NCBI GenBank assembly: GCA_951802195.1
Contig: OX637624.1
Coordinates: forward strand, 186,001-250,000
DNA length: 64,000 nucleotides
Direction of reading: 5' to 3'
From: Tausonia pullulans
Taxonomy: Eukaryota; Basidiomycota; Tremellomycetes; Cystofilobasidiales; Mrakiaceae
Under the pieces are notes generated by a model. It ran no database searches. It was not told where the DNA came from and worked only from the letters and a program-made list of their open reading frames with translations. Positions 4,862-43,471 of the stretch are shown piece by piece. Within the stretch, counting starts at the first letter, position 1. Each line of letters opens with the position of its first letter. The position numbers were made by a program, and so were the translations under genes.

Positions 4862-5757
4862 GAAGAGAAGAGAAGATCAAAACCACATGCCAACTGTCCG
4901 GACGACCGACCACCATCCCTGCACGACGCTGCTCGACCCTCAGCCATCGCCGCCATCGCCACCGTCACCTGTGCCATCATTCCCTTCGCCTCGTGTCCAT
5001 CAGCCGGAGGGTGGATGCGACCGTTCGGATGTCGTCGTCGTCACGGACGACGAGGTCCTCGAGCTTGCTACACCGTCGGCAGCGGACAAGGCGCCTGATC
5101 CGGGCGAGGGATGTACAACAGAAGAGGAGAATGTGCCGCGAGGGCGAGGATGTTGGACAGACGATCGTCCGGAGGGGAACCAGGAAATTATAGGGGAGCT
5201 GGGGAGAGAAGTGCTACGGCAGTGGCCCAGACGATGCACACCACGGAACAGGGCTCGTCGTAGAGATGGAAGAACGACTCAACCGGGGCAGCGAGATAGA
5301 GCACGCGTTGCGTGCTCTCGTTGTGCGGCGTTAGCGTGCCGTCTGCGAGCAAGACCGACGTGATGTGTTTGCCCGGATGCGGGTATAGACCATATAGAGA
5401 AAACGATGGGCGAGGGCGACGTCCTCGGACGTGGCTCGGGAAGGAGCCTGAGCTGACGCCGGCGTCGCTTCCAATCGTCACCGGTGAGAGTCGAGAAGTC
5501 CGTATGCCGGCCGTCCGGGATGATAAGGGGACACTTAGCCAGCCGATTGGCGGCGCGCTGGGCAGGCTGGCTGGGAATGTCGGAGCAGACGCATGCCGCG
5601 TGGGGAGACACGAGAGAATCTACGAAGGCCGAGAGGAGATCGCTATAGACGGAGTAGACTATTCTCTAGAGCCGCACGTTCCAAAAGTTGCCGTCGAGGT
5701 AGAGCGTCTTGTTCTAGACGTCCAGATAGATGCGCCAGCGTGGGGGGAGAGCGCTAT
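4862..5757 (-). mobile_element. Decayed LINE fragment, ORF2 C-terminal part (copy a)
   Basis: The minus strand encodes, with stops and frame breaks, peptides clearly related to the C-terminus of the full LINE ORF2 at 34276-37950. Examples are HPGKHITSVLLADGTLTPHN and LAAPVESFFHLYDEPC, against HPGKHTAAPFLADGTATPHN and LTAPVESFFHLFDEPC. A block near 5650-5740 matches the RWQAYLRAWF region of the intact copy. The copy is 5'-truncated near 5757, where the tail of another fragment begins. Its 3' part (4862-5190) resembles the fragment at 33360-33695 more than the intact element, so the two belong to a separate, older subfamily. Both stop at nearly the same base in a TTCTCTTCTC-like tail (minus strand) instead of poly-A. 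Confidence 0.8.
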
Positions 5758-5905
5758 CTTGTTATATTTTGTATTTAAGTCATGACCTATACGTAGGAGA
5801 CGAGGTGACCATATGAGCGATAGCGAGTCGTAGCTAGATAGAGGGAGGGCGAGAATGAAAGAAGAGGCGGAGGAAAACATATGATGGGTATGGTCATAGG
5901 CCCCA
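5758..5905 (-). mobile_element. LINE 3'-UTR fragment (copy b)
   Basis: The plus strand carries a T-rich stretch, then GTATTTAAGTCATGA and a diverged match to the 3' untranslated region of the intact LINE (plus strand 34050-34200). This includes CGAGGTGACC near 5802 and CATAGGCCCCATGG near 5895. It is a 5'-truncated copy on the minus strand, with its tail facing away from the tRNA-Asn gene. Confidence 0.75.
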
Positions 5906-5963: not shown

Positions 5964-6069
5964 AAATTGGATGTTTTTTTTTGTATTTAAGTCATGAGTT
6001 ATACGTAGAGAACGAGGTAACCCTATGAGAGATATCGAGTAGTAGCCAGATAGAGATGAAAATTGGATG
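5964..6069 (-). mobile_element. LINE 3'-end insertion with target-site duplication (copy d)
   Basis: AAATTGGATG at 5964-5973 is repeated at 6060-6069. Between them lie T9 (5974-5982), GTATTTAAGTCATGAGTTAT and about 60 bases matching the LINE 3' untranslated region. On the minus strand this is a strongly 5'-truncated LINE copy ending in poly-A, flanked by a 10-base direct repeat. The duplication makes this a genuine target-primed insertion and not a deletion product. The tRNA-Asn gene starts 83 bases to the right of the proximal repeat. Confidence 0.8.
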
Positions 6070-6152
6070 ATGCTTTTTTTTGTATCATATTATTTGGGAT
6101 ACTAATACGAAGTTACACATTTGCAAACATTATCCGGATGTTATTCGGATTA
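6060..6152 (+). repeat. Conserved 5' flank of tRNA-Asn, copy 1
   Basis: AAAATTGGATGAT, GATACTAATACG and TTCGGATTATCTCGG recur in the same order upstream of the second tRNA-Asn gene (32635-32715, opposite strand). The two flanks are therefore paralogous. Copy 1 carries an extra stretch with T8-GTAT (6074-6085) that copy 2 lacks; this may be a further tiny LINE-tail insertion. Confidence 0.75.
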
Positions 6153-6225
6153 TCTCGGCTAGCTCAGTTGGTAGAGCGTCAGACTGTTAATCTGTAGGTC
6201 GACGGTTCGAACCCGTCGCTGAGAG
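6153..6225 (+). tRNA. tRNA-Asn (anticodon GTT)
   Basis: A 73-base cloverleaf without intron. The acceptor arm is TCTCGGC pairing with GCTGAGA at 6218-6224 (one G-T pair), with discriminator G6225. The D arm is TAGCTCAGTTGGTAGAGC, which also contains the A box. The anticodon loop is CTGTTAA with GTT at 6186-6188, and the T arm is GACGG-TTCGAAC-CCGTC, which contains the B box. No CCA is encoded, as in eukaryotes. The same gene body occurs on the opposite strand at 32562-32634. Confidence 0.95.
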
Positions 6226-6229
6226 TTAG

Positions 6230-6234
6230 TTTTT
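6230..6234 (+). terminator. Pol III T5 terminator of tRNA-Asn
   Basis: Five T residues start four bases after the discriminator of tRNA-Asn, in the normal place for an RNA polymerase III terminator. Confidence 0.7.
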
Positions 6235-19475: not shown

Positions 19476-21388
19476 ATGCACTCCGGCAACGCCATTCGCC
19501 TTCTCACCGGTTCGTCCAGCCGTCAGCTCTTGGCTCGTGCCCTTTCTCGCGGGTCGCCGGCGTGGTCGCTGGGCCGCCCGCCCGTCGTCTCTCGGCCGTC
19601 GCCCGTTGCCGCCCGAAGGCGCGCAGGATGATGCTGAAATTGTCTGCTCTCGCTCGCTCGCTCGTGCTCTTTCGCTCGCTCCAGGCAACTCGCACCCAGA
19701 GCTCGCAAAGACCGTTGCGGACCGGTGGGTTTTCTCCTTTCTCTCTCTCACGAGTGGCCACGCCGAGTCCAACTGCTCTCAGGGCTGACAGATTCACTCC
19801 TCTCCATTCCGTCTTGCTCTCCCGTCCAGTCTCGGCATCCCGCTGACGTCGAGCCAGTGCACCAAGTTTGCCGACCAGGAGATTGGCGTCCGGATTCACG
19901 AGTCTGTCCGTGACGAGGACGTCTTCATCATTCAGAGCCCCTCGCCTCCCTCGGTGAGTTCCATCCAGCCCACTCGCCGTCGACTTGTGTCCTCTCGTCT
20001 GCACTTGCGTTCTGGGCGCCTGGGGAGGGGGGGGGGGAGGGGGGATGTCTTTTCTCTTGCCTGCCGGCATCCCGCTTCCTACCTACCCTGCGTATCTCAG
20101 CCCCGGAGGAGCCCGATGGAGTCGGGCGGCCTTCGGACAGACAGACAGGAGGGGGACGGTGGAGAAGGGCGCGCGCGCGCTCTCGGCCGAGCTCTTGGCC
20201 CTCCTCACCCGGAGGGGAAGGGAGGGTCGCCTCCGAGCTCTATCTCTTCCGTCCTAGAAAAAAAAAGAATGAAGGGTCCATCTCCGTCGACCTTAGGCGG
20301 ACGAGGCATAGAGGGGGGGGGGGGGGGAAGTCGAGCTGAAGGCGCCAGGGGCTGACGAACCTGGCCCCCTCCCGCGCGCGTCTCTCTCACCCAGGTCAAT
20401 GACCACCTCATGGAGCTCCTCATCCTCATCTCGGCCTGCAAGACCGCCTCCGCTCGACGGATCACCGCCGTCATCCCTTGCTACCCTTATGCCCGGCAGG
20501 ACAAGAAGGACAAGTCGAGGGCGCCCATCACCGCCAAGCTCGTCGCGAACCTCCTCACCGTCGCCGGAGCGGACCACGTGATCACGATGGACCTGCACGC
20601 GTCGCAGGTCCAAGGGTTCTTCGACATCCCCGTCGACAACCTGTTCACCGAGCCCATCATGGTCCGATACATCAAGTCCAACATCCCCAACTGGGAGCAG
20701 GCGATCGTCGTCTCCCCCGATGCTGGAGGAGCCAAGAGGGCGACTGCCATGGCCGACAGGCTCAACTTGGACTTTGCGCTCATCAACCGAAAGCGGGTGC
20801 GCGACCTGCCTGAGGTGGGCGAAGGCGAGGAGAAGCACAAGGAGGAGAGGATGGAGCTCCTCGTTGGAGACGTCAAGGGCAAGGTGAGCGGACGCAATCA
20901 ATCCAACAAACGCTAAGAGAGAGAGAGAGATTGAGAGTGAGTGCGGGAAGGCTGACGAAATGGACGGCCAGACTTGCATCCTCGTCGACGACCTCATCGA
21001 CACCGGCCGGACGATCGGTCTCGCCGCTCAGGTCCTCGCTGAGAACGGCGCAGGCGAGGTCTGGGCCATCGTCGCCCACGGTGCGTTCCCTCTCGCTCAC
21101 TCCTTCCCCTGCTCTCACCTGACATCCTTCCCCCCCCCCCCCCCCACCCCCACCCCCTCTTCCTTCCCATACCCCCAAGGCCTCCTCTCCGAGACCTCAA
21201 TGAAGACGCTCCGCGAGCTCCCGATCAAGCGTCTCGTCGTGACCAACACGCTCCCCCAAACGCACCGGTCCGAGGAATGTGGCGACAGCTTTGACGAGGT
21301 CGACGTCGCCTCGACGATCGCAGAATCTATCCGGAGAACGCACAACGGAGAGTCGATCTCGCTGCTGTTCTCGGAACAGGGTTGGTAG
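19476..21388 (+). CDS. PRS: Ribose-phosphate pyrophosphokinase (PRPP synthetase), multi-exon
   Basis: Transfers pyrophosphate from ATP to ribose-5-phosphate to make PRPP for purine, pyrimidine, NAD, histidine and tryptophan synthesis. The start at 19476 reads [12 protein letters not shown], spliced to [13 protein letters not shown] and [20 protein letters not shown]. The big exon has the catalytic region [20 protein letters not shown] (about 20480-20540), [20 protein letters not shown] and the loop [12 protein letters not shown] (about 20708). The next exon carries the PRPP-binding motif [17 protein letters not shown] (about 20974-21030). The last exon starts after a C15-rich intron and ends LLFSEQGW, stop at 21386-21388. 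Length (about 320 residues) is normal for the family, and the insert [20 protein letters not shown] is short. Introns are unusually rich in G-runs (20026-20043, 20312-20325). Several paralogous subunits are usual in fungi; which one this is cannot be told. Confidence 0.93.
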
Positions 21389-32404: not shown

Positions 32405-32561
32405 GGGGCGATGCGTGGTATGATGGGGCGACAAAAAAGGGCAAGTGTCATTACACTGACAATAATGGTTACATTGCGAGTGGGCAAATGCACCCAGTCA
32501 CCCGCAACGGCGGGAAAGAGATTCAAATGAGGACGAAAAGAGTCCACTAGAACAATAATAA

Positions 32562-32634
32562 CTCTCAGCGACGGGTTCGAACCGTCGACCTACAGATTAA
32601 CAGTCTGACGCTCTACCAACTGAGCTAGCCGAGA
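32562..32634 (-). tRNA. tRNA-Asn (anticodon GTT), second copy
   Basis: The 73 bases on the minus strand are identical by eye to the tRNA-Asn gene at 6153-6225, with the same acceptor, anticodon loop CTGTTAA and T arm. Downstream (lower coordinates) the first T4 lies only at 32536-32539, 22 bases beyond the gene, so its terminator is weaker or more distant than in the first copy. It is head-to-head with tRNA-Phe at 39980, with LINE material filling the space between. Confidence 0.95.
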
Positions 32635-32715
32635 TAATCCGAACGAGGTCCAGATAATGTCTACAATTGTGTGCCTCCGTATTAGTATCTCAAACAATGT
32701 GTATCATCCAATTTT
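32635..32715 (-). repeat. Conserved 5' flank of tRNA-Asn, copy 2
   Basis: Read on the minus strand, this contains AAAATTGGATGATAC, GATACTAATACGG, CATTATCTGGA and TTCGGATTATCTCGG in the same order as the flank of the first tRNA-Asn gene (6060-6152). The duplicated unit is therefore the tRNA plus about 80 bases of upstream sequence, in inverted orientation 26 kb apart. The distal end of the shared block coincides with the LINE junction. Confidence 0.8.
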
Positions 32716-32716
32716 A

Positions 32717-33005
32717 CCAGATGGATGGAACTGCGGTCGGCGCCGACATCGATCCATCCTGGGTGACAAGCAGGTCTGGGGTGGGGAAGTATGGCTGGTC
32801 CATAGCCACTGCTTGATGTAGCTGGTCATCTTAATATCTTACCTCTTTAATGGGCCTATGTCCACATCCATATATTGCTTTCCTTCTACCTGTTATTAAC
32901 TTTCGCTCTCCCTCTATCTGGATACTACTCGATATCTCTCATAGGGTTACCTCGTTATCTACGTATGACTCGTGACTTACTTAATTACAATCCAAAAACA
33001 AAATG
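32717..33005 (+). mobile_element. 5'-truncated LINE copy (copy e), 3' end of ORF2 plus 3' UTR
   Basis: The plus strand begins CCAGATGGATGGAACTGCGG, matching the last codons of ORF2 of the intact LINE. It continues through CTGGTCATCTTAATATCTTA, the GGGCCTATGTCC block and CTCATAGGGTTACCTCGTTA, and ends ACTTACTTAATTACAATCC followed by an A-rich tail. It is on the opposite strand to the adjacent tRNA-Asn gene and its tail points away from it. Its 5' junction abuts CATCCAATTTT (32705-32715), the complement of the motif duplicated around copy d. Moderately diverged from the intact copy. Confidence 0.85.
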
Positions 33006-33359
33006 CCTGACAGGAACGCTTGAGTGTTTTGGCTGCGATGGGGTGTGGGGGGGGGGGGGAGGGGGCTGGATTACCACGGCAGGCTACGTCTGGCGACATG
33101 ACGCTTCGTGTTAGGATTGGCCCAAGGATCGAGGGCTGAGGGGACGGGTGAAGAGGGGCCTTCGGTGGAATGAGACTGAGGTGATGGAGGCGGCACGGGC
33201 TAGCTTCGAGGTTTGTCGAGTCCAAATGAAAGTCATTTTGCAGAATAAACGTTCACGATGAACTGAGCGTTTATTGACAAGGGCTGAGAACGGGGAGAGG
33301 ATGAGTCAGGATCTCGCGGACTTGCCACCTCGGTTCTGCCCCTGGCTAAGTCTGTGGTT
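33006..33359. other. Unassigned sequence between LINE copies
   Basis: About 350 bases with a G-run (about 33048-33065) and no match I can recognise to the LINE or to a gene. It may be the original spacer between the divergent tRNA-Asn and tRNA-Phe genes. Confidence 0.4.
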
Positions 33360-33695
33360 ATGAGGAGAAGAGAAGACCCGACCCACACGCCAACTATCCG
33401 GACGACCGACCGCTATCCCTGCACGACGCTCATCAGCCCTTCGCCATCGCAGATGACTTCGAGCTTACGTTATCGTCGGTAAGGGAGGAAGCGCCAGACC
33501 CGGGCGAGGAAGATGCAACAGAAGAGAAGGACGTGCCGCGGGGGTGAGGGGGCCAGAGGAGCGCGGCCAGGTTTTCTGGCGTACGGCTCCGCTGGCTAGC
33601 AAAGGGGAGAAGTGCAACCAAGGCGGCTGTATACTCTCATGGTGCATTACAGGCAGTATACTTATGTGGAGGTGCGCATAGGCCACGGAACAGGT
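33360..33695 (-). mobile_element. Decayed LINE fragment of the second subfamily (copy f)
   Basis: Matches copy a at 4862-5260: shared GGACGACCGACC, CCCTGCACGACGCT, GACCCGGGCGAGG and the peptide string PRGTSFSSVASSSPGSGA (minus) against PRGTFSSSVVHPSPGSGA. On the minus strand it is the extreme C-terminus and 3' end of a LINE ORF2. Its 3' limit coincides with that of copy a. It is truncated near 33695. The bases from there to 33862 are unassigned. Confidence 0.7.
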
Positions 33696-33862
33696 CTGAG
33701 AGCACGAAGGCACGAGCTGCTGGTCTCATCTGATCCCCTGCAGTCGCTGCGTCCTGATCACGTTCCTTCTACATCCGAAAGCCCGGCGAACACCAGGCAC
33801 GCTTCAAACATACCTGCCTTGTCTGTCTGTACTACTTAGGCTTCTCCGGAGGGGCCGAATTT

Positions 33863-34008
33863 AGTATTTAAGTCATGAGTTATACGTACGTAGAGGACGA
33901 GGTAATCCTATGACAGATGGCGTGTCGTAGCTAGAGAGAGAGAGAGCGAAAATGAAAGAAGAGGTGGAAGGAAAGCACAAGATGTGTATGGACATAGGCT
34001 CATTATAA
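33863..34008 (-). mobile_element. LINE 3'-UTR fragment (copy g)
   Basis: The plus strand GTATTTAAGTCATGAGTTAT, the AGGACGAGGTAATCC block and GGACATAGGCTCATTA follow the intact element's 3' untranslated region base for base with scattered changes, then similarity ends near 34008. The orientation is the same as the intact LINE that lies immediately to the right. Confidence 0.8.
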
Positions 34009-34275
34009 AAGGGTTTAGAACAATAACAATAGATGTCCATTTTTTTTTTTGTATTTAAGTCATGAGTTATACGTAGAGAACGAGGTAACCCTATGAGAGA
34101 TGATGATTCGTAGCTAGATAGAAGGAAAGCGAAAATGAAAGTAGGGATGGAAGGAAAACAAAAGATGGGTTATGGACATAGGCCCATTAGAAAAAGGTAA
34201 GATATTAAGATGACCAGATACACCAAGCATTGGCGATGTAACACCAGCCATACTTCCCCACCCCTGACCTGCTTT

Positions 34276-37200
34276 TCACCCGGGATCGATGGCGGCACCG
34301 ACCGCAGTTCCATCCATCTGGCCACTGCCAGCCATCCACCTCATGCTCGACTGCCAGTGTGTCTGCCGGATCGTAGACGCGATCTTGCGGATCTCCTCGT
34401 CCGTGACAGGATCGAGGGCTGCGATCTTGCTGTACCTCCGCCTCCGGACGGATCGCCATGTCCGGGCAACAAAGATGCAGTGGAAGAGGAAGACCCCCCT
34501 CGGCGGCGACGGTGTCGGGCAGACAAGCGTCTGGAGGGAGGGAGGATGGGAGGGGAGTGAAGGAGAGGCATGCGCTGCCGCAGCCGACCAGATAGCGCCC
34601 ACGACGGGACACGGCTCGTCGAAGAGGTGGAAGAAGGACTCGACGGGGGCCGTCAGGCACAGCGCACATCGCTTGGACCTGTTGTGCGGTGTAGCGGTGC
34701 CGTCGGCGAGGAATGGCGCAGCAGTATGCTTCCCTGGGTGGAGACTGTACAGCGAGAAGCGGTGGGCCAAGTCGACGTCTTCGGGCGACGCTCGGGACAC
34801 GGCCTTGAGCAAGCACCACTGACGCTTCCAATCGATCTTGGTAAGCGCCGGAAAGTGGTCTCGCCACCCCTTTGGGATGATGAGGCCGCGGTTGGCTAGA
34901 GTACGACTGTGTGCGCCGTGGGGTTCACGAGGGGCGTTCAGCCGGCCGAGGTTTGTGTGGCTAGGGAGGAGACCCAGCCGCAACTGGCTATCGGTACCGA
35001 ACGTAGACATCCAGTGGACAGTGTTCCTCCAGCGGTTTTGATTCCAGTAGCTCGTGTCAAAGCTGATTTCTTCGAACCATGCCCGGAGGTAAGCCTGCCA
35101 TCGTGCAGGGAGAGCTCTTCGGAGCATTGGGATGGCATTCCACCAGACGGCTGGGAAGAACCATTGACCTTCCACTGGGGAAAGGAATACGCCTAGCCAG
35201 CTGAAATTGGCGGGCCGAGGTCCACTGATGAACTCTCCATCCCTGAAGATGGTGCGAGTCAGCATTCTATAAGCCCCTGGGTCGAGGCTCATGGTATGGA
35301 TGATCCGCTTGCGAATACGGATCGATGCGGGAAGCTCCGGTCGGAAGAGCACATCGCCAGCCCACTGGGCGCGCGCTTTGATGAGCCGGAAGCGGAGTGG
35401 CGTGAAGCCGAAGCCGCCGAGGTCTCGAGGGGTTTCTAGACGTTCTCTGCTGACGTCGTGGTGTTTCGATCGGTAGAGGGACTTGTAGGCCGTTGCCTCG
35501 AGGTCTTCCAGGATATCGTCTGGGCACGGCAGGAAGCGGTCCAGGTAGATGATCTTCGAGTAGATGTACTGGTTGATGACGTTGCATCGCGCAAGGAGAG
35601 GGAGGTCGTGCAGCGGGATGCGAGCAAGACGAGCCTTCAGCTTGCCGATGACATCTCGCCAGCAAGCAGGACCGTTGACCGTGCGACCACATGGAACGCC
35701 GAGGAAGTCGAATGACAGCGTTTGGACGCGCCATTCGTGGTACATCGTTGGTGCATCCGTCCGGCATGACCCTAGAGGATAAAGGAGTGATTTCTGGTAG
35801 TTCAGCTTGCTTGCTGCGGCTTTCTCGTACTCTCGGAGGCAGACCGTCGCCTCATCGACCTCCGACCAGGTCCGACACCGGATACTTAGATCGTCTGCAA
35901 AGAGAAGGACCTTCCGCTCATGTAGAGGGGGTGGATTGGCCGGTGGGAGGCGATGGCGGAGCATACATGCCAGCGGCTCCAGGAGGAGGGCGAAGATCGT
36001 CGGTGCTGCGGGATCGCCCTGTCGGACACCAGACCGGATGTCGATGGCTTGGCCCATCCATCCGTTGATCATGAGGCGAGCTGTCTGGGAGGTCATCGTT
36101 GAGGTGATCCACGCGGCGGCGCGCGGACCGAACCCCATGTGGCGGAGGCAGGGGCCAACAAAGTCGTGCGATACTCTGTCGTATGCCTTCTCAAAGTCGA
36201 CTTGGGCGAGGACGCCAGGTAAAAGGTCTTCGTCGTCAATGGCGAGCTGGAGAGAGGAGATGTTGCGACCCGAGTCGCGGCCAGGGAGGAAGCCTGTCTG
36301 GTCCCCGTCGATGAGAGTGTCCACGACGGTGAGCAGGCGGCTGTTGATGGCAAGGGAGAAGATGCGAGCGTCAACGTTGATGAGCGAGATCGGACGATAG
36401 TTGGCAATCTGATCGCGATCTCCCTTCTTCTTGAAGATCAGATGGATATGGGCCTCGCGCTGTGAGGTGGATCGGAGGCCAGTCTCCGGGACGAGGTTCA
36501 GCAGACTGAGGAGGATCGGGCCGACGGCAGCCCATGTGGCCTGGTAGAACTCGACGGGGATCCCGTCACTTCCTGGTGTCTTGTTACGGTTCGATCGGAA
36601 CGTGGCCCGCCTGAGCTCGTCCAGTTCGAAGGGTTTCTCGAGGGTCCGACTCTGGGAGTTGTCGAGTGTGTTGGTGACATATCGGAGGGCGTTGGCGTGC
36701 TCGGAAGCTGGCGTCGTCTTGGTCTCATAGAGAGTTGTGTAGAAGGCGTGTGCTGTAGCTAGAATGTTCTCGTTGTTTGCGATGGCTGCGGCCGCTGGGT
36801 TGTTGAGTGGCCGCAGGGCTGCGATAGTGTCGGCCTGGCGGACGATCTTGAGTCGCTTCTTGACGGCATACTCGCTTGTGTTGGCTGGTTCGAGGTGGGC
36901 TCGAAGAGCGTGGCCATGGAGGATCGACCTGTGTGGATCCCCGCCTGACACTCTGCTCATTCGGGCGAGGTGTCTTGAGATGTCAGACGCGTGATCCGCT
37001 ATCTGAAGCTTGGTCTCGTCCCAGGCCTCGAAGGGGTCCCTGATCTCGGTGAGCGCATCTTGGTACCACTTGGGAACGTGGTAGAGGAAGTACTCAACAA
37101 AACCGGTAATCTTCAGAAGGTGTGTTCCGATCTTGTACGATCCGGGACCGTGCTCTATTGCACCGGGGAAGGTGAGGCTGAGTGCGATCGGCTTGTGGCT

Positions 37201-37950
37201 AGAGTAGAGATGGCCGGTCGGGCGTGGCAGGAAGCGCTGTCGCACGGCTCGGCTAGCGAGTAGAGCGGACAGGTAGAAGCGATCGATGCGGCGATCTGCT
37301 CGCGTGATGCCAGTATAGTTAGTGTATTCGCGCTGGAGCGGGTATAGGGATCGGTATGGGTCGGAGAGGGCATAGTCCCGGGCCAGCCGGCACATTTCCT
37401 CCTTTCCCGCGTTCTGGGTAAATTGGCTCATCCCGTCGAGGTAGCTGTCCTCCACACAGTTCCAGTCCCCTCCCAGGAGGAGAGGAATGTCAGAGTGGGC
37501 AGGTATCTTGCGAGATAGAGTAGAGAGGAACTCCTTTGTCGAGCGGCCGTTCGTTTGGCTGTCTCGGCAGGGGACATAGACTGCGGCCACCCTGACGGCT
37601 TCGCCGGCTATGGTGAAGACAGCATCCGTCAGGTTGGTTTGTAAGATGGGGGAGGAGCGGGAGATGGATCTGATCCTAGTTGGAGGGGTATCAGGAGGAA
37701 GGAATCGAGAGGCCTGCCGCCAGAGGATGGCAGTCTGGCATCCGACCGTAAAGATCGAGCCGAAGCCCATATCTTCACACTCAGCTGTCCAGGTCGCCAC
37801 CTGACCTGGTGTTGTGCATGCTATTTCTGAGAGAAGGTATATGTCAGCCTTGGATCGTGAATATAGAGAGAGGAGGAGACTGCGGGCGCGATCTCGCGTG
37901 AACACCCTCTGGATGTTCGCCGCGACGATCTGTACATCATTGTACACCAT
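34276..37950 (-). CDS. LINE ORF2: APE endonuclease, reverse transcriptase, C-terminal zinc-binding motif
   Basis: Polyprotein of 1224 residues for target-primed reverse transcription. The start ATG at 37950-37948 overlaps the ORF1 stop as TAATG. Residues 1 to about 240 form an apurinic-like endonuclease: VAANIQRVFTRDRARSLL, LLSEIACTTPGQV, LLGGDWNCVEDSYLDG (about residue 157; catalytic GDWN), then a terminal segment with HKPIAL. The reverse transcriptase runs from about residue 450 to 780: NKTPGSDGIPVEFYQ, NYRPISLINVDARIF (about 515), QVDFEKAYDRVSHDF, SGVRQGDPAAPTIFALLLEP and the catalytic VLLFADDLSI (about 683). Near residue 1090, CALCLTAPVESFFHLFDEPC is a CX2C...HX4C zinc-binding motif like the zf-RVT domain of other LINEs. 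I see no RNase H domain. No stop codon interrupts the frame. Confidence 0.93.
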   Translation of the reverse strand: MVYNDVQIVAANIQRVFTRDRARSLLLSLYSRSKADIYLLSEIACTTPGQVATWTAECEDMGFGSIFTVGCQTAILWRQASRFLPPDTPPTRIRSISRSSPILQTNLTDAVFTIAGEAVRVAAVYVPCRDSQTNGRSTKEFLSTLSRKIPAHSDIPLLLGGDWNCVEDSYLDGMSQFTQNAGKEEMCRLARDYALSDPYRSLYPLQREYTNYTGITRADRRIDRFYLSALLASRAVRQRFLPRPTGHLYSSHKPIALSLTFPGAIEHGPGSYKIGTHLLKITGFVEYFLYHVPKWYQDALTEIRDPFEAWDETKLQIADHASDISRHLARMSRVSGGDPHRSILHGHALRAHLEPANTSEYAVKKRLKIVRQADTIAALRPLNNPAAAAIANNENILATAHAFYTTLYETKTTPASEHANALRYVTNTLDNSQSRTLEKPFELDELRRATFRSNRNKTPGSDGIPVEFYQATWAAVGPILLSLLNLVPETGLRSTSQREAHIHLIFKKKGDRDQIANYRPISLINVDARIFSLAINSRLLTVVDTLIDGDQTGFLPGRDSGRNISSLQLAIDDEDLLPGVLAQVDFEKAYDRVSHDFVGPCLRHMGFGPRAAAWITSTMTSQTARLMINGWMGQAIDIRSGVRQGDPAAPTIFALLLEPLACMLRHRLPPANPPPLHERKVLLFADDLSIRCRTWSEVDEATVCLREYEKAAASKLNYQKSLLYPLGSCRTDAPTMYHEWRVQTLSFDFLGVPCGRTVNGPACWRDVIGKLKARLARIPLHDLPLLARCNVINQYIYSKIIYLDRFLPCPDDILEDLEATAYKSLYRSKHHDVSRERLETPRDLGGFGFTPLRFRLIKARAQWAGDVLFRPELPASIRIRKRIIHTMSLDPGAYRMLTRTIFRDGEFISGPRPANFSWLGVFLSPVEGQWFFPAVWWNAIPMLRRALPARWQAYLRAWFEEISFDTSYWNQNRWRNTVHWMSTFGTDSQLRLGLLPSHTNLGRLNAPREPHGAHSRTLANRGLIIPKGWRDHFPALTKIDWKRQWCLLKAVSRASPEDVDLAHRFSLYSLHPGKHTAAPFLADGTATPHNRSKRCALCLTAPVESFFHLFDEPCPVVGAIWSAAAAHASPSLPSHPPSLQTLVCPTPSPPRGVFLFHCIFVARTWRSVRRRRYSKIAALDPVTDEEIRKIASTIRQTHWQSSMRWMAGSGQMDGTAVGAAIDPG

Positions 37951-39860
37951 TATTCTTCCATGTCCTCGGCTTCAGCCAAGGTCACGAGGGTGCGCTCGAT
38001 GGATGCCTGGGAGGATGGCGTGGAGGAGATGAGAGAAGGAGTGGAGGGTGGGTTCAGGGGGATTGAAGATGGGGGGGATGGGGATAGGGGAAGGGGAGAC
38101 GATGGTGACAGGGGAGGTGGTGTGGGAGGAGGATTCTCGTCTTCGACCTGCATCCCGTCTTCTGTCCTCTCCAGACCCCCCTCGTTGTCTTCCTCTAGGG
38201 CGCTCAGCGTGCGAATGGGTTGCGAGCCCGCATTGCGCGGTGCTTGCTCTGAGTGGGAGTGGGAGGAGTCGGCGTAGGCAGGAGGTGTCACCACCTCCGT
38301 CGTGGCTTCCGTCGGCCTGTTCAGTGACCTCCTTTTGGATTTTTGTACGAGCTGGTATCCATCCAGGTCTGTTCCCGGTTCGACAGGTCTCTGGGGGGGT
38401 CCTTCGGTTGGTGCTCGCGCATTCGCTGGAAGGTTTGCCTTCGGACGACCTGGGCATCGGGCCGATGGGTGAGCGTGCGATCCGCATCCGCCACACTCTG
38501 GAGCGGTAGGACACTTGGCACGAGCGTGCTCAAATGAGTGGCAGTAATAGCAGTATGACGAGGCTGGTCGAGCTGGAGAGTTCGTCCCAGTGCCAGGTTG
38601 GACAGGTTTGAAGATGACATGTTGGTTGACCCAGCCGGGTAGCTGTTGAGGGAATGCATTCGCCCTTGGCATCGTCTTGGAGCCAGAAAGGTCGAGCAGG
38701 ACTCTAACCCGGCCAGTTGGGACGCCGGGTAGGCGGGCGTAATACTGACGCTGGAATATGATGACTCTGTCTCCAGAAGCTTCTACTTGTTTGCGAAAAG
38801 CTTCCTCCACTCCGTCTTCGTCTTCGAAGTTCACCAGCAGACCTTCTTGCAGGAGCTTGTTTTGGGAATTGTAGCACGCGTGGATCTGGGGTTTGACGCC
38901 TCTCACATTCAGCGGGAGGGCCTGTAGTTGAGTCAAGATGTCTTGAGCATTTCCTCGGGAGTTGACTATAAGGAGCATTCTGTCTTTTGGGTCCTTGACA
39001 GGACGGATCATGAAAGACAGTCGTTCGTCGCACTTTGAGATTGCGAGAGAGATCTCGAAAGGAGTGGTATCTCGAGGGACTGAGATGGCTAGACAGTTCC
39101 CGCGGTCGGTAGCCAAGGCTGGGGCGATTGGGGTATTGTCCTGCGGAGGTTGTTGAGCGGTTCCGAAGACGAAAGGGAACTGGGGCTGGGTGCCAGACGA
39201 GTCACGTTGTCTCGCAGCTGAGGTTGTAGGATGAGCCTGTTTGGCGGCGTTCGCATATGAGCGGCCGATGGCGTTCGGCTGGGATTTCGCGGCGGCGCGA
39301 GTGCGAGTGCGAGTGCCGGCGGAGTTCGCCGGCACGGGCGACGCGGTGCCGGGGACGAAGAGAGGTTGTTGAGGGAGAGTCTCGCCTGTAGAGCGAGACG
39401 GAGTGAGACGCGTCACTTCGGACGTGGAGGATAGAGCGGCATTGAGGTCGCTGATGGCTGAGCTCGACCGCGTGATACGGCGAGCTGGGGGAGTTGCAGG
39501 AGTTCTGCGGAGGGGGGAGGGAGAAGAGAGGAGGGCCGTGGGGCTGATATGGATGTGGGGCGTGGTGGGGTTGGTAGGGTTGGTACGATTGGTACGATTG
39601 GTAGGAGTGCTGGGGTCGGTAGGATTGGTAGGAGTGCTAGGGCTGCTAGGACTGGTCGGATGGGCAGGTGGGCTGAGAGTGGGTTTGCTGACGGGCGTTT
39701 GAGGACGTTCGTCGACGCGAGAGGGCGTATTGGTCGCGTCTTGGACGCTGGGGGTTTCATCGGATCCACTCTTTCTCTTTGCTGGAGAGGGAGGGTCTGG
39801 GGGATCCTTGGGAGCCTTGAGGGCTTCTTGGAGTCGCTTGGGGGTTGATTCACTAGGCAT
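37950..39860 (-). CDS. LINE ORF1: Gag-like nucleic-acid-binding protein with two CCHC knuckles
   Basis: Structural RNA-binding protein of the element. I prefer the ATG at 39860 (MPSESTPKRLQEALKAP, 636 residues); an in-frame ATG at 39950 would add 30 residues and may lie in the leader. The N-terminal third is rich in Pro, Ser and Thr, with an imperfect NPT/NRT repeat (plus strand about 39558-39650). The middle (residues about 240-420) is a globular region with LAISVPRDTTPFEISLA and EGLLVNFEDEDGVEEAF. Two zinc knuckles follow near residue 437: CYYCHSFEHARAKC and CGGCGSHAHPSARC, both CX2CX4HX4C. The tail is Pro/Ser-rich and ends LAEAEDMEE, stop TAA at 37952-37950, sharing its last A with the ORF2 ATG. 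Confidence 0.88.
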   Translation of the reverse strand: MPSESTPKRLQEALKAPKDPPDPPSPAKRKSGSDETPSVQDATNTPSRVDERPQTPVSKPTLSPPAHPTSPSSPSTPTNPTDPSTPTNRTNRTNPTNPTTPHIHISPTALLSSPSPLRRTPATPPARRITRSSSAISDLNAALSSTSEVTRLTPSRSTGETLPQQPLFVPGTASPVPANSAGTRTRTRAAAKSQPNAIGRSYANAAKQAHPTTSAARQRDSSGTQPQFPFVFGTAQQPPQDNTPIAPALATDRGNCLAISVPRDTTPFEISLAISKCDERLSFMIRPVKDPKDRMLLIVNSRGNAQDILTQLQALPLNVRGVKPQIHACYNSQNKLLQEGLLVNFEDEDGVEEAFRKQVEASGDRVIIFQRQYYARLPGVPTGRVRVLLDLSGSKTMPRANAFPQQLPGWVNQHVIFKPVQPGTGTNSPARPASSYCYYCHSFEHARAKCPTAPECGGCGSHAHPSARCPGRPKANLPANARAPTEGPPQRPVEPGTDLDGYQLVQKSKRRSLNRPTEATTEVVTPPAYADSSHSHSEQAPRNAGSQPIRTLSALEEDNEGGLERTEDGMQVEDENPPPTPPPLSPSSPLPLSPSPPSSIPLNPPSTPSLISSTPSSQASIERTLVTLAEAEDMEE

Positions 39861-39979
39861 AAGGTAGGGTGACCTGGATTGACCTGGTGGTGGTTGTCCA
39901 TGGTAGAGAACAAAATATTGGACAAGAAAAGCAACAGGGATTCGGTTCAACGTATCCCGTAGGTCTTCATCTATAAGCT

Positions 39980-40052
39980 GCCTCGATAGCTCATCTGGTA
40001 GAGCGTACGCCTGAAGAGCGTAAGGTGGCCTGTTCGAGCCAGGCTCGAGGCA
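39980..40052 (+). tRNA. tRNA-Phe (anticodon GAA)
   Basis: A 73-base cloverleaf without intron. The acceptor is GCCTCGA pairing with TCGAGGC at 40045-40051, discriminator A40052. The D arm is TAGCTCATCTGGTAGAGC, the anticodon stem TACGC/GCGTA with loop CTGAAGA (anticodon GAA), and the T arm GCCTG-TTCGAGC-CAGGC. The intact LINE ends within roughly 0-120 bases upstream, on the opposite strand. Confidence 0.93.
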
Positions 40053-40056
40053 TTAA

Positions 40057-41241: not shown

Positions 41242-43471
41242 TCACCAACCCAGATCCTCCTCCGCTAAGAAACCCGAGATATCCTCAAGCCTTTGCTCGA
41301 GCTGGCTCGCGCGCATGGTAGGGGAGAAAGACCCGAAGCCGCCGAACGCAGAGTCGGCCTGGCTTGAGGCTAGCGTTGGAAATGAGTCCTTTGGTGGCGG
41401 GTCCTCGCCAATGTTAACGATGCCGAGAACTGGCGGGGGAGGGGAAGATGCTGGAGATGATGAAGATGAATGTGAGGGGACCGACGTGAGGGCCGCCATA
41501 ACAGCTGATCTGCTCTTAACAGGGAGAGCGGCCGCCGTCGTCGGATGAGGGATGGACGGATGGTGCGAGAGAGGCCGACAGACGGCAGTGCCAGCGGTAG
41601 GCCTGGTAGCAGCGGCGTGAGGCGCTATTGAAGGGCATTTTGGCGGTGGAAGGGAGGTGGACTTGCGAATGCAGGACGGTATAGAGGTGGCTGGACCCTT
41701 ACCAATCTTCGCTGTGGAGGAGAACGAACCGGTGCCGAAAAGAGTCGTAACTGACAACGTCGTTGTCGGGCGAGGGTTGGTATCAAGGACGTCGGCAAAG
41801 GGCGGGTTAAGCGTCAATGGACGCTGCCGCTTCTTCGAGATCGCCATCGTTGCCGGGCCGAGCGGAACTAGTGTAGGTCGGGACTTTTGGGAAGAGCCGG
41901 CCAACTTGGCACGGTGGCCTAGAGATTCAGAGGAGGAATCATCGAGCGCGCGGAGAGAGCACCGCGGAGGACGAGAAGAGGAAACAGTAGCGATGGCCAT
42001 GGATGTCGATCTAGACGTTAAAGCCGATGGTGGCGTTGGTGGAGGAGGTGGAGGAGATGGAGGAGGTGGAGGAGGAGCGGTAGTTTGAAAGAAACGAGAC
42101 GTCAGAGTCGGGGTTGAGGTTCGGAGGTCGGCCGGAAAGTCCAGAGGTTGATGCTGAAATGAAAAGGGCAGAGACGTCAACAACTCTTCGCAAGTCATCT
42201 GGGGGACAAAGGGACTCACGAAATCAGTGAAGAGTGCGCTTGGAACAGCCTGAGTTGTCGACTCGAGGTGCTTTCCAAGCCGAAGCTCCTCCTGGAGGTC
42301 CGCCTCTTGCAATGTGTCATCCGTCCCACAATTGCTCGAGCAGGTTGGACGCGCATCAATGCGGCCTTTGCAAGGAGGCGGAGAAGCAAGAGGCGGTGAA
42401 CGGCCCCTCAACGACGCTTGCGAAGGTCGCTTTCCAGCAGCTGTTGGTGATGTCGAGCGCTTCTGCCTCTTCCTTGGTCCATCCCCGGCTGGCCTGAGCA
42501 GATCGGGACCGGAGGAGGAGAGTGATTTTGGCTTGATGTGACCATCTACAGACTTGTTGGAGCCCTGGGAGGACGTGATGGGACGTTTGACGACGGGGAA
42601 GCCGAGTCGAACCCTAGTGCTGCCCGTTGTCGTTGACGCGTTCGGAGTCGACTGGCTCTTCCGGACCCGAGGGACGCGTGTGGAGGTGACAGCGACCCCT
42701 GCCACTGACGTCGAGGGCGCCAAAGACAAGGCGGTGCCCAAGGTCGGCAAGTCTGAGGTGGAGGACGACAACATCGTCGGTGCGGAGATCATCCGCCTGA
42801 CATTGCCGAGGGCGGTCCTCAATGCGCTCGTGTGCGCTCGTTGTTCTCGTCGTTCCGCCTCGACACGGTCCTCCTCGAGCCAGGCGGCATACTCTTCCTC
42901 GTTCCTGGAGATGAGAGCGGCAGACGTCAGCTGATGTGCTCTGTCGAGCATACAGCTTCTCCCTTCATAAGGGCCTGCGCGAGCGCGTGCGCCAGGATGA
43001 GACTACGGACCTCGCGAGCCCCCTCGACGCGTCCGGTGCCCGAGCCGCAGGCGCATCACTCCTCCCCCATACTGCAGCCCAGCGGTGTATTGAGCCATCC
43101 GGACGATGTCTCGAGTGGTAGTGGATGCAGGTGAGTCGAAGCTGCCTCGGATTCGTCCGGACGATCTCCATACGGCGCTCAACCGCGTCCTCGAAGGCGG
43201 CTTCCTCCTCAGGCGTCATGACAGGTGGAGGGACGTAGAGTATGGGTCTGAGGAGACAACAGGAGTCATGAACGATCAACGGTCGCTCGGTCAGTCCACT
43301 GAAAGTACGGAAGACAAAAGAGGGAATGGTGGCAACGAACCGTCGATCCGCCATGAGCTGGGCCTTCCAGGCCTCGTAAGTTGTCGGCCCGACATCGACC
43401 GAGTAGTATGACTCGCTCGACGATGAGAAGGAAGCTGCGGGCATCGCGCTGCTGGCGGATGGCGACGCCAT
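41242..43471 (-). CDS. Serine/proline-rich protein of unknown function
   Basis: I do not recognise this protein. The main exon is a 569-codon open frame (42951-41242) whose N-terminal part, SRNEEEYAAWLEEDRVEAER with EQRAHTSALRTALG, looks like a charged helix. The rest is low-complexity Ser/Pro/Thr (likely disordered), with a poly-Pro run at about 42020-42080 and an end reading LEQRLEDISGFLAEEDLGW. An upstream exon probably starts at 43471 (MASPSASSAMPAASFSSSSE) and contains YEAWKAQLMADRR and PPPVMTPEEEAAFEDAVERR, possibly joined by a 94-base intron ending in CTCAG. The join to the main exon is not resolved; acceptors at GCGCAG (about 42982) or CATCTCCAG (about 42907) are possible. It is 192 bases from a divergent small membrane protein gene. 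Confidence 0.6.

Follow-up and report, generated by a model that had tools for sequence, protein, structure and literature searches.

Introduction

In the table of PMC5911963 and in section 9 of PMC5006619, the retrotransposons without long terminal repeats (LTRs) that target transfer RNA (tRNA) genes come from social amoebae only, and the fungal entries are LTR elements. Ty1, Ty3, Tj1 and Tyl3/Ylt1/Tyl6, as described in the corresponding part of PMC5911963, are fungal and insert upstream of genes transcribed by RNA polymerase III (Pol III), but they are LTR elements using an integrase. Here we describe a non-LTR element, a long interspersed nuclear element (LINE), of the basidiomycete Tausonia pullulans. 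It was found in a stretch of 64,000 nucleotides (contig OX637624.1 of assembly GCA_951802195.1, positions 186,001 to 250,000), hereafter the window, and was searched for in the whole host assembly (23.86 Mb, 21 contigs). A dynamin ORF of the window also points to a basidiomycete host: its first named matches are Candolleomyces, Termitomyces and Suillus (Agaricomycotina) at about 50%, besides one identical match. We consider, with a probability of roughly 0.88, that this LINE is guided by the Pol III complex and inserts antiparallel, by target-primed reverse transcription, about 60-110 bp upstream of tRNA genes.

The closest described system is TRE5-A of Dictyostelium. According to the passages on it in PMC5911963 and PMC5006619, TRE5-A encodes an apurinic/apyrimidinic endonuclease (APE)-type domain and a reverse transcriptase, has two open reading frames (ORFs) and an oligo(A) end, and lies antiparallel upstream of tRNA genes with several elements per gene, all of which resembles the LINE described here. 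The same passages place TRE5 elements 40-54 bp from the mature tRNA, whereas the distance is 61-96 bp in nine intact copies of our LINE. TRE5 reaches ORF2 by a -1 frameshift and has modular untranslated regions (the part of PMC5911963 on its structure), whereas here the ORFs overlap in TAATG and only about 36 nt precede ORF1. The hosts of TRE5 are social amoebae; here the host is a basidiomycete, and the LINE is accompanied by a tandem-repeat partner. Because distance, translation signal and host differ, we did not file the LINE as a TRE5 member, setting it apart by these characters. NLTR-A and NLTR-B of social amoebae are also non-LTR elements found upstream of tRNA genes (passages in PMC5911963 and PMC5006619). 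They are placed there 2-6 bp and 39-64 bp, respectively, from the tRNA and carry RNase H, whereas no RNase H match was obtained in ORF2 of our LINE.

L1-type LINEs are found in fungi as Ylli (Yarrowia) and Zorro (Candida). In the passages of the literature on them, target duplications of Ylli were not identified, Zorro3 is placed at poly(A) sites and Zorro1/2 are subtelomeric, and tRNA targeting is stated for neither family. The portion of PMC4905642 consulted makes no mention of tRNA. A search of open-access titles and abstracts, a scope that leaves subscription papers and Repbase outside, found no fungal LINE with a tRNA habit.

LINE copies in the window

The window contains three targeted tRNA genes (Table 1), on whose places ARAGORN and Infernal agree with an earlier, sequence-only reading of this DNA. 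That reading had also confined the LINE pieces of the window to the upstream flanks of tRNA genes. A sensitive search for the element throughout the window agrees, apart from two chance-level matches elsewhere (42025-42072, E 0.008; 20007-20037, E 0.005). Upstream of tRNA-Asn 6153, the pieces are on the minus strand throughout, and within this stack the decayed ORF2 remnant lies farthest out and has diverged most. Between the divergent tRNA-Asn 32562 and tRNA-Phe, the plus-strand piece lies beside tRNA-Asn and the minus-strand pieces lie on the tRNA-Phe side. Every piece of the window is antiparallel to the tRNA gene on its own 5' side. The copy nearest each tRNA gene points its 5' end toward it, as had been noticed before, across 98 bp (92 in the sensitive search) for tRNA-Asn 6153 and across 83 bp for each of the other two.

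Table 1. tRNA genes, LINE copies and LINE remnants in the window
Feature	Position	Strand	Remarks
tRNA-Asn(gtt)	6153..6225	+	ARAGORN, Infernal; third target
tRNA-Asn(gtt)	32562..32634	-	ARAGORN, Infernal; second target
tRNA-Phe(gaa)	39979..40053 (Infernal 39980-40052)	+	ARAGORN, Infernal; target of intact LINE
Intact LINE copy	34040..39896	-	5' end 83 bp from tRNA-Phe; poly-A 3' end ~34040-34051
ORF1 of intact LINE	37950..39860	-	636 aa counted from first ATG; open frame 37950-39950
ORF2 of intact LINE	34276..37950	-	1224 aa; APE-type endonuclease, then reverse transcriptase
5'-truncated LINE copy behind the intact one, more diverged	33860..34014	-	83% identity
Two weak decayed LINE remnants	33452..33717	-	61-63% nucleotide identity
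5'-truncated LINE copy	32717..32998	+	antiparallel to tRNA-Asn 32562; 5' end 83 bp upstream
LINE copy nearest tRNA-Asn 6153	5974..6061	-	92-98 bp off; target duplication CATCCAATTT
Second, more diverged LINE copy of the tRNA-Asn 6153 stack	5762..5903	-	window search with element
Decayed ORF2 remnant	4953..5752	-	65% identity; blastn 4953-5562, tblastn 5004-5752

Association with tRNA genes across the assembly

Proximity to tRNA genes was examined over the assembly in three samples, with a partial tRNA census. On the tRNA side, we took the 30 best-scoring among 63 listed Infernal loci (10 Trp, 20 Asn) with 1.5 kb flanks, selected by tRNA score alone and regardless of LINE content. An opposite-strand LINE-family piece lies 75-149 bp upstream (median 93) of 20 of these 30 genes, comprising all ten Trp genes and ten of the 20 Asn genes. 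Within the same 150 bp, none of the 30 has a same-strand piece upstream or a piece on either strand downstream. Within 1400 bp, the upstream antiparallel count is 23.

On the element side, 40 out of 62 candidate 5' ends were scored. Identity to the query is 93-100% at these 40 ends, and therefore the pattern of spacing and orientation holds in little-diverged copies. Flanks were fetched for 20 of them, the best-scoring among those lacking flank sequence so far. For nine of the 20 intact 5' ends, ARAGORN finds an antiparallel tRNA gene facing the element from 61-96 bp away (Pro, Pro, Leu, Ala, Gly, Ser, Phe, Glu and Gly); Infernal confirms seven of these genes at E 0.01, missing both Pro genes. 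At the remaining 11, the neighbour is another copy of the same orientation, whose poly-A end lies -2 to +20 bp away. Two of these stacked ends gained a tRNA mark on the 5' side in a later pattern search, C10:41055 at 470 bp and C6:863744 at 1661 bp (loci are named by contig, C1, C2 and so on, and by fetched stretch, such as L009 or L030). When the tRNA marks given by Infernal, by ARAGORN and by box patterns are combined (n=283), an antiparallel tRNA start is found on the 5' side of 16 of the 40 ends within 150 bp and of 23 within 2.5 kb. The count of 16 is not independent of the ARAGORN flank result because eight of its marks are ARAGORN genes at the same fetched ends or in the window; the other eight come from Infernal or pattern searches.

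The third sample used the 3' ends. The terminal 23-mer of the LINE occurs at 394 places (<=2 mismatches), and its reversed control at none. From 100 listed places, we drew the 68 exact 3' ends that lie in regions with a complete B-box list (C1, C2 and the initial 478 kb of C3) and compared them with 88 tRNA marks under a 7 kb limit. For 36 of the 68, the nearest mark is an antiparallel one on the 5' side, compared with 2.7 on average and 21 at most in 2000 circular shifts, which preserve the clustering of many 3' ends. The B-box pattern matches 514 places against 134 in its control and is unusable as a tRNA count because the 95-bp monomers of the partner element match it; 30 of the 100 listed B-box places were removed as partner monomers before this test and before the similar test of the partner. 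The sequence-only reading had proposed such a genome-wide comparison, and in the part that was run the association is far above chance. The targeted tRNA types include Asn, Phe, Trp, Val, Glu, Met, Ala, Leu, Pro, Gly and Ser.

The abstract of PMC5006619 regards the flanks of tRNA genes as safe places for insertion when a genome is dense in genes. Accordingly, the LINE could insert widely without any targeting, with selection in a compact genome sparing only the copies upstream of tRNA genes, where they do no harm. Selection of this kind would not be expected to produce the single orientation within 150 bp (20 to 0) or the 61-96 bp spacing of intact copies, nor the abutment on an older copy within -2 to +20 bp in 11 of 11 stacked cases, and the pattern is already present among copies whose 5' ends are 93-100% identical. 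We therefore regard survival in safe sites as a very improbable account of the data compared with guided insertion.

Target duplications and age-ordered stacks

Among the 47 distinct copies with both flanks, 16 share a word of >=7 nt across the insertion, compared with 3.3% of mispaired flanks. Examples are CATCCAATTT at the copy nearest tRNA-Asn 6153 (window 5974-6061), CTCGTTTTCGGC and GCGTCTGAC. No common motif is apparent by eye among the 16 shared words. Duplications without an apparent motif fit target-primed reverse transcription at a site that is fixed by position and not by sequence.

L1-type endonucleases favour certain short sites, and the upstream regions of yeast tRNA genes are nucleosome-poor. 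The endonuclease of the LINE might thus read a DNA motif or open, AT-rich chromatin upstream of tRNA genes, with no contact with Pol III required. The shared words with no obvious motif and the occurrence of one orientation only speak against this possibility. Moreover, insertion recurs at places where the DNA beyond ~60-100 bp upstream has already given way to an older copy, which leaves recognition of the local DNA or its chromatin, in our estimate, improbable as the source of the pattern.

Recurrent insertion is recorded in stacks of copies. At a tRNA-Gly gene (L030), the order is the tRNA, 70 bp, a partner element, a 4.5-kb LINE and a truncated LINE. The duplication TGCGCTC of the 4.5-kb LINE lies between its poly-A and the 5' end of the following copy, and this LINE therefore entered on the tRNA side of that older copy. 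The tRNA-proximal copy is the less diverged in 13 of 13 stacked neighbour pairs (11 tRNA genes, two-sided p 2.4e-4), or in 11 of 11 once the two pairs that hold the query are left out. This comparison omitted copies whose 3' tail alignment was shorter than 50 bases or stopped short of the tail end. Stacking itself is not new because a table footnote in PMC5006619 mentions, for social amoebae, that a tRNA gene was hit repeatedly. The age order of the stacks, the non-autonomous tandem-repeat partner and the existence of tRNA genes without a copy are three features beyond the sequence-only reading.

The LINE and its proteins

The element is ~5.86 kb long, with ~36 nt between its start and ORF1, the first of two ORFs. 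At their junction, TAATG (37948-37952), the ATG of ORF2 overlaps the stop of ORF1. ORF2 matches RVT_1 with E 4.6e-25. Among solved structures, its best match is L1 ORF2 (1e-44), with R2 at 1e-15. The endonuclease matches Exo_endo_phos with E 0.00096, which is below Pfam's cut-off, and the L1 endonuclease with E 0.0016; the residues D162, N164 and H252 are invariant across 11 sequences. For ORF1, there is no Pfam match, and two CCHC-type knuckles were recognised by eye. ORF2 is free of stops in 36 of 38 copies (38 scored out of 391 candidates in the whole assembly). With the 3' poly-A, 5' truncation and target duplications, the hallmarks of APE-type non-LTR elements are present, and the element is an APE-type (L1/Tx1-like) non-LTR retrotransposon.

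Protein searches, with 8000 candidates scored in each, gave 28% identity for the best match, and the highest identity listed was 32% over 31% of the protein. Among the matches listed, which are mostly unnamed, the best named one is a Tx1-like protein of Stylophora (28%), and none carries a TRE name. Judged by these alignments, the LINE appears to represent a fungal lineage without a close relative among the protein matches scored.

A non-autonomous partner element

Many stacks contain a partner element built of ~95-104-bp tandem monomers, followed by a ~98-bp version of the LINE 3' end and poly-A. Tandem Repeats Finder, from which all monomer numbers per partner copy were taken, gives 4.0 monomers at L021, 10.0 at L018 and 4.0 at L013. 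The junction of monomers and tail occurs at 163 places genome-wide (<=3 mismatches; control 0). Among 100 listed exact partner copies, 27 have an antiparallel tRNA on the 5' side as their nearest mark within 2.5 kb, compared with a mean of 1.6 and a maximum of 11 in 1000 shifts, for which the size of C13 was an assumed value that concerns one partner copy. The LINE tail and the same tRNA habit in the partner imply that the LINE proteins most likely carry the targeting. The shared tail and target also suggest that the mobility of the partner depends on the LINE.

SVA elements of primates are non-autonomous, contain a tandem-repeat part and are mobilised by an L1-type LINE. The partner would have the form of a LINE parasite that is SVA-like in its design, and it differs from SVA in that its repeat body is attached to the 3' tail of the LINE itself. 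No paper on a fungal SVA-like element was found in the open-access literature. The four monomers at L021 432-831 contain seven GGTTCGACC motifs, which resemble part of the Pol III B box, and the monomers of an array on C2 match GGTTCGANYCC exactly. It is possible that the partner monomers act as extra TFIIIC sites.

Proposed mechanism and its weighing

The LINE machinery would be guided to a point ~60-110 bp upstream of a tRNA gene, where target-primed reverse transcription would insert the new copy in a single antiparallel orientation with its 5' end toward the tRNA. For this, the ORF1 or ORF2 protein might contact the Pol III initiation complex (TFIIIB/TFIIIC) on the tRNA gene. The complex would hold the endonuclease at a fixed distance and so set the polarity of the nick, as proposed for Dictyostelium TRE5-A. 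The part of PMC5911963 devoted to TRE5-A reports an interaction of its ORF1 protein with TFIIIB proteins and a loss of targeting when box B is mutated. New copies insert at the 5' end of older ones, so that stacks grow with the least diverged copy nearest the tRNA. The sequence-only reading had suggested an undescribed LINE lineage aimed at tRNA flanks, a view now backed by position, orientation, the many tRNA types, repeated insertion at one and the same site, and target duplications in which no common motif is obvious. Recognition of the Pol III complex itself, an alternative named in that reading, is probable.

Several observations weigh against guided insertion as a complete account. The 30 tRNA genes also have, within 1400 bp, 8 same-strand pieces upstream and 6 and 3 pieces downstream. 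Seventeen of the 40 5' ends have no tRNA mark within 2.5 kb, of which nine abut another copy by sequence and two by coordinates. Among the 3' ends, 21 of 68 lack a mark within 7 kb, and 11 of the 47 assigned ones fall into other classes (5'-side parallel 2; 3'-side 4 and 5). Similarly, 61 of the 100 listed partner copies have no mark within 2.5 kb, and 12 of the 39 assigned are in other classes (3, 3 and 6). Some of the 16 shared words are doubtful, being A-rich or the partner element's own start. As the tRNA census is incomplete, these counts are compatible with a fraction of insertions that may lie away from tRNA genes.

Furthermore, ten Asn genes out of 20 lack a copy within 150 bp. Eight of these ten belong to tRNA clusters on C6 and are seemingly mutual copies; all eight Asn genes examined there are free of LINE pieces in the 150 bp upstream. 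These clusters, at C6 ~0.67-1.03 Mb (L051-L058), are dense and apparently duplicated, and they contain Leu, Lys, Asn, Glu, Ala and other tRNA genes. In the ~300 bp upstream of two U6 genes and one 5S gene, the only matches were short and consisted mostly of C/G runs. A tRNA-type promoter may matter, a hint that comes from these three copy-free genes, which are too few and include two U6 near-copies. The U6 pair, C1:1926557-1926656 (-) and C1:1974943-1975042 (+), lies ~48 kb apart in opposite orientation, and its upstream sequences (L081, L082) are near-identical by eye, as in an inverted duplication.

We think it likely that a fungal L1-type lineage evolved TRE5-like targeting independently, together with an SVA-like parasite, and that the tRNA flanks hold datable records of its insertions. 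The fungal case would then be a second, probably independent, instance of tRNA targeting among non-LTR elements. Since many copies have an open ORF2, the protein contact that sets distance and polarity becomes accessible to study. Stacks ordered by age might serve as a relative clock at each targeted tRNA gene. The partner, with its tandem repeats, gives a clue to the portion of the RNA that suffices to borrow the targeting.

Local duplications

A few blocks of tRNA plus LINE copied around the genome could also create recurrent neighbourhoods without repeated insertion. The two tRNA-Asn genes of the window have 148 nt in common at 89% identity (6086-6233 and 32554-32701), near-identical LINE arrays are found at C2:364-400k and C11:447-470k, and the tRNA clusters of C6 appear duplicated, all in keeping with copying of blocks. 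However, the 5' truncation points and the shared words vary by locus, and many tRNA types are targeted, which makes block duplication a highly improbable origin of the pattern as a whole; it may be restricted to local arrays.

The block shared by the two tRNA-Asn genes consists of the tRNA and ~67 bp upstream and stops near the insertion zone. The array at C2:364-400k (L009-L014) comprises six near-identical units of LINE plus partner in tandem, with a B-box mark on its 5' side at C2:401242. The units are spaced by 6096 or 6286 bp, differing by two 95-bp monomers, and the array looks like the result of unequal crossing-over within a stack.

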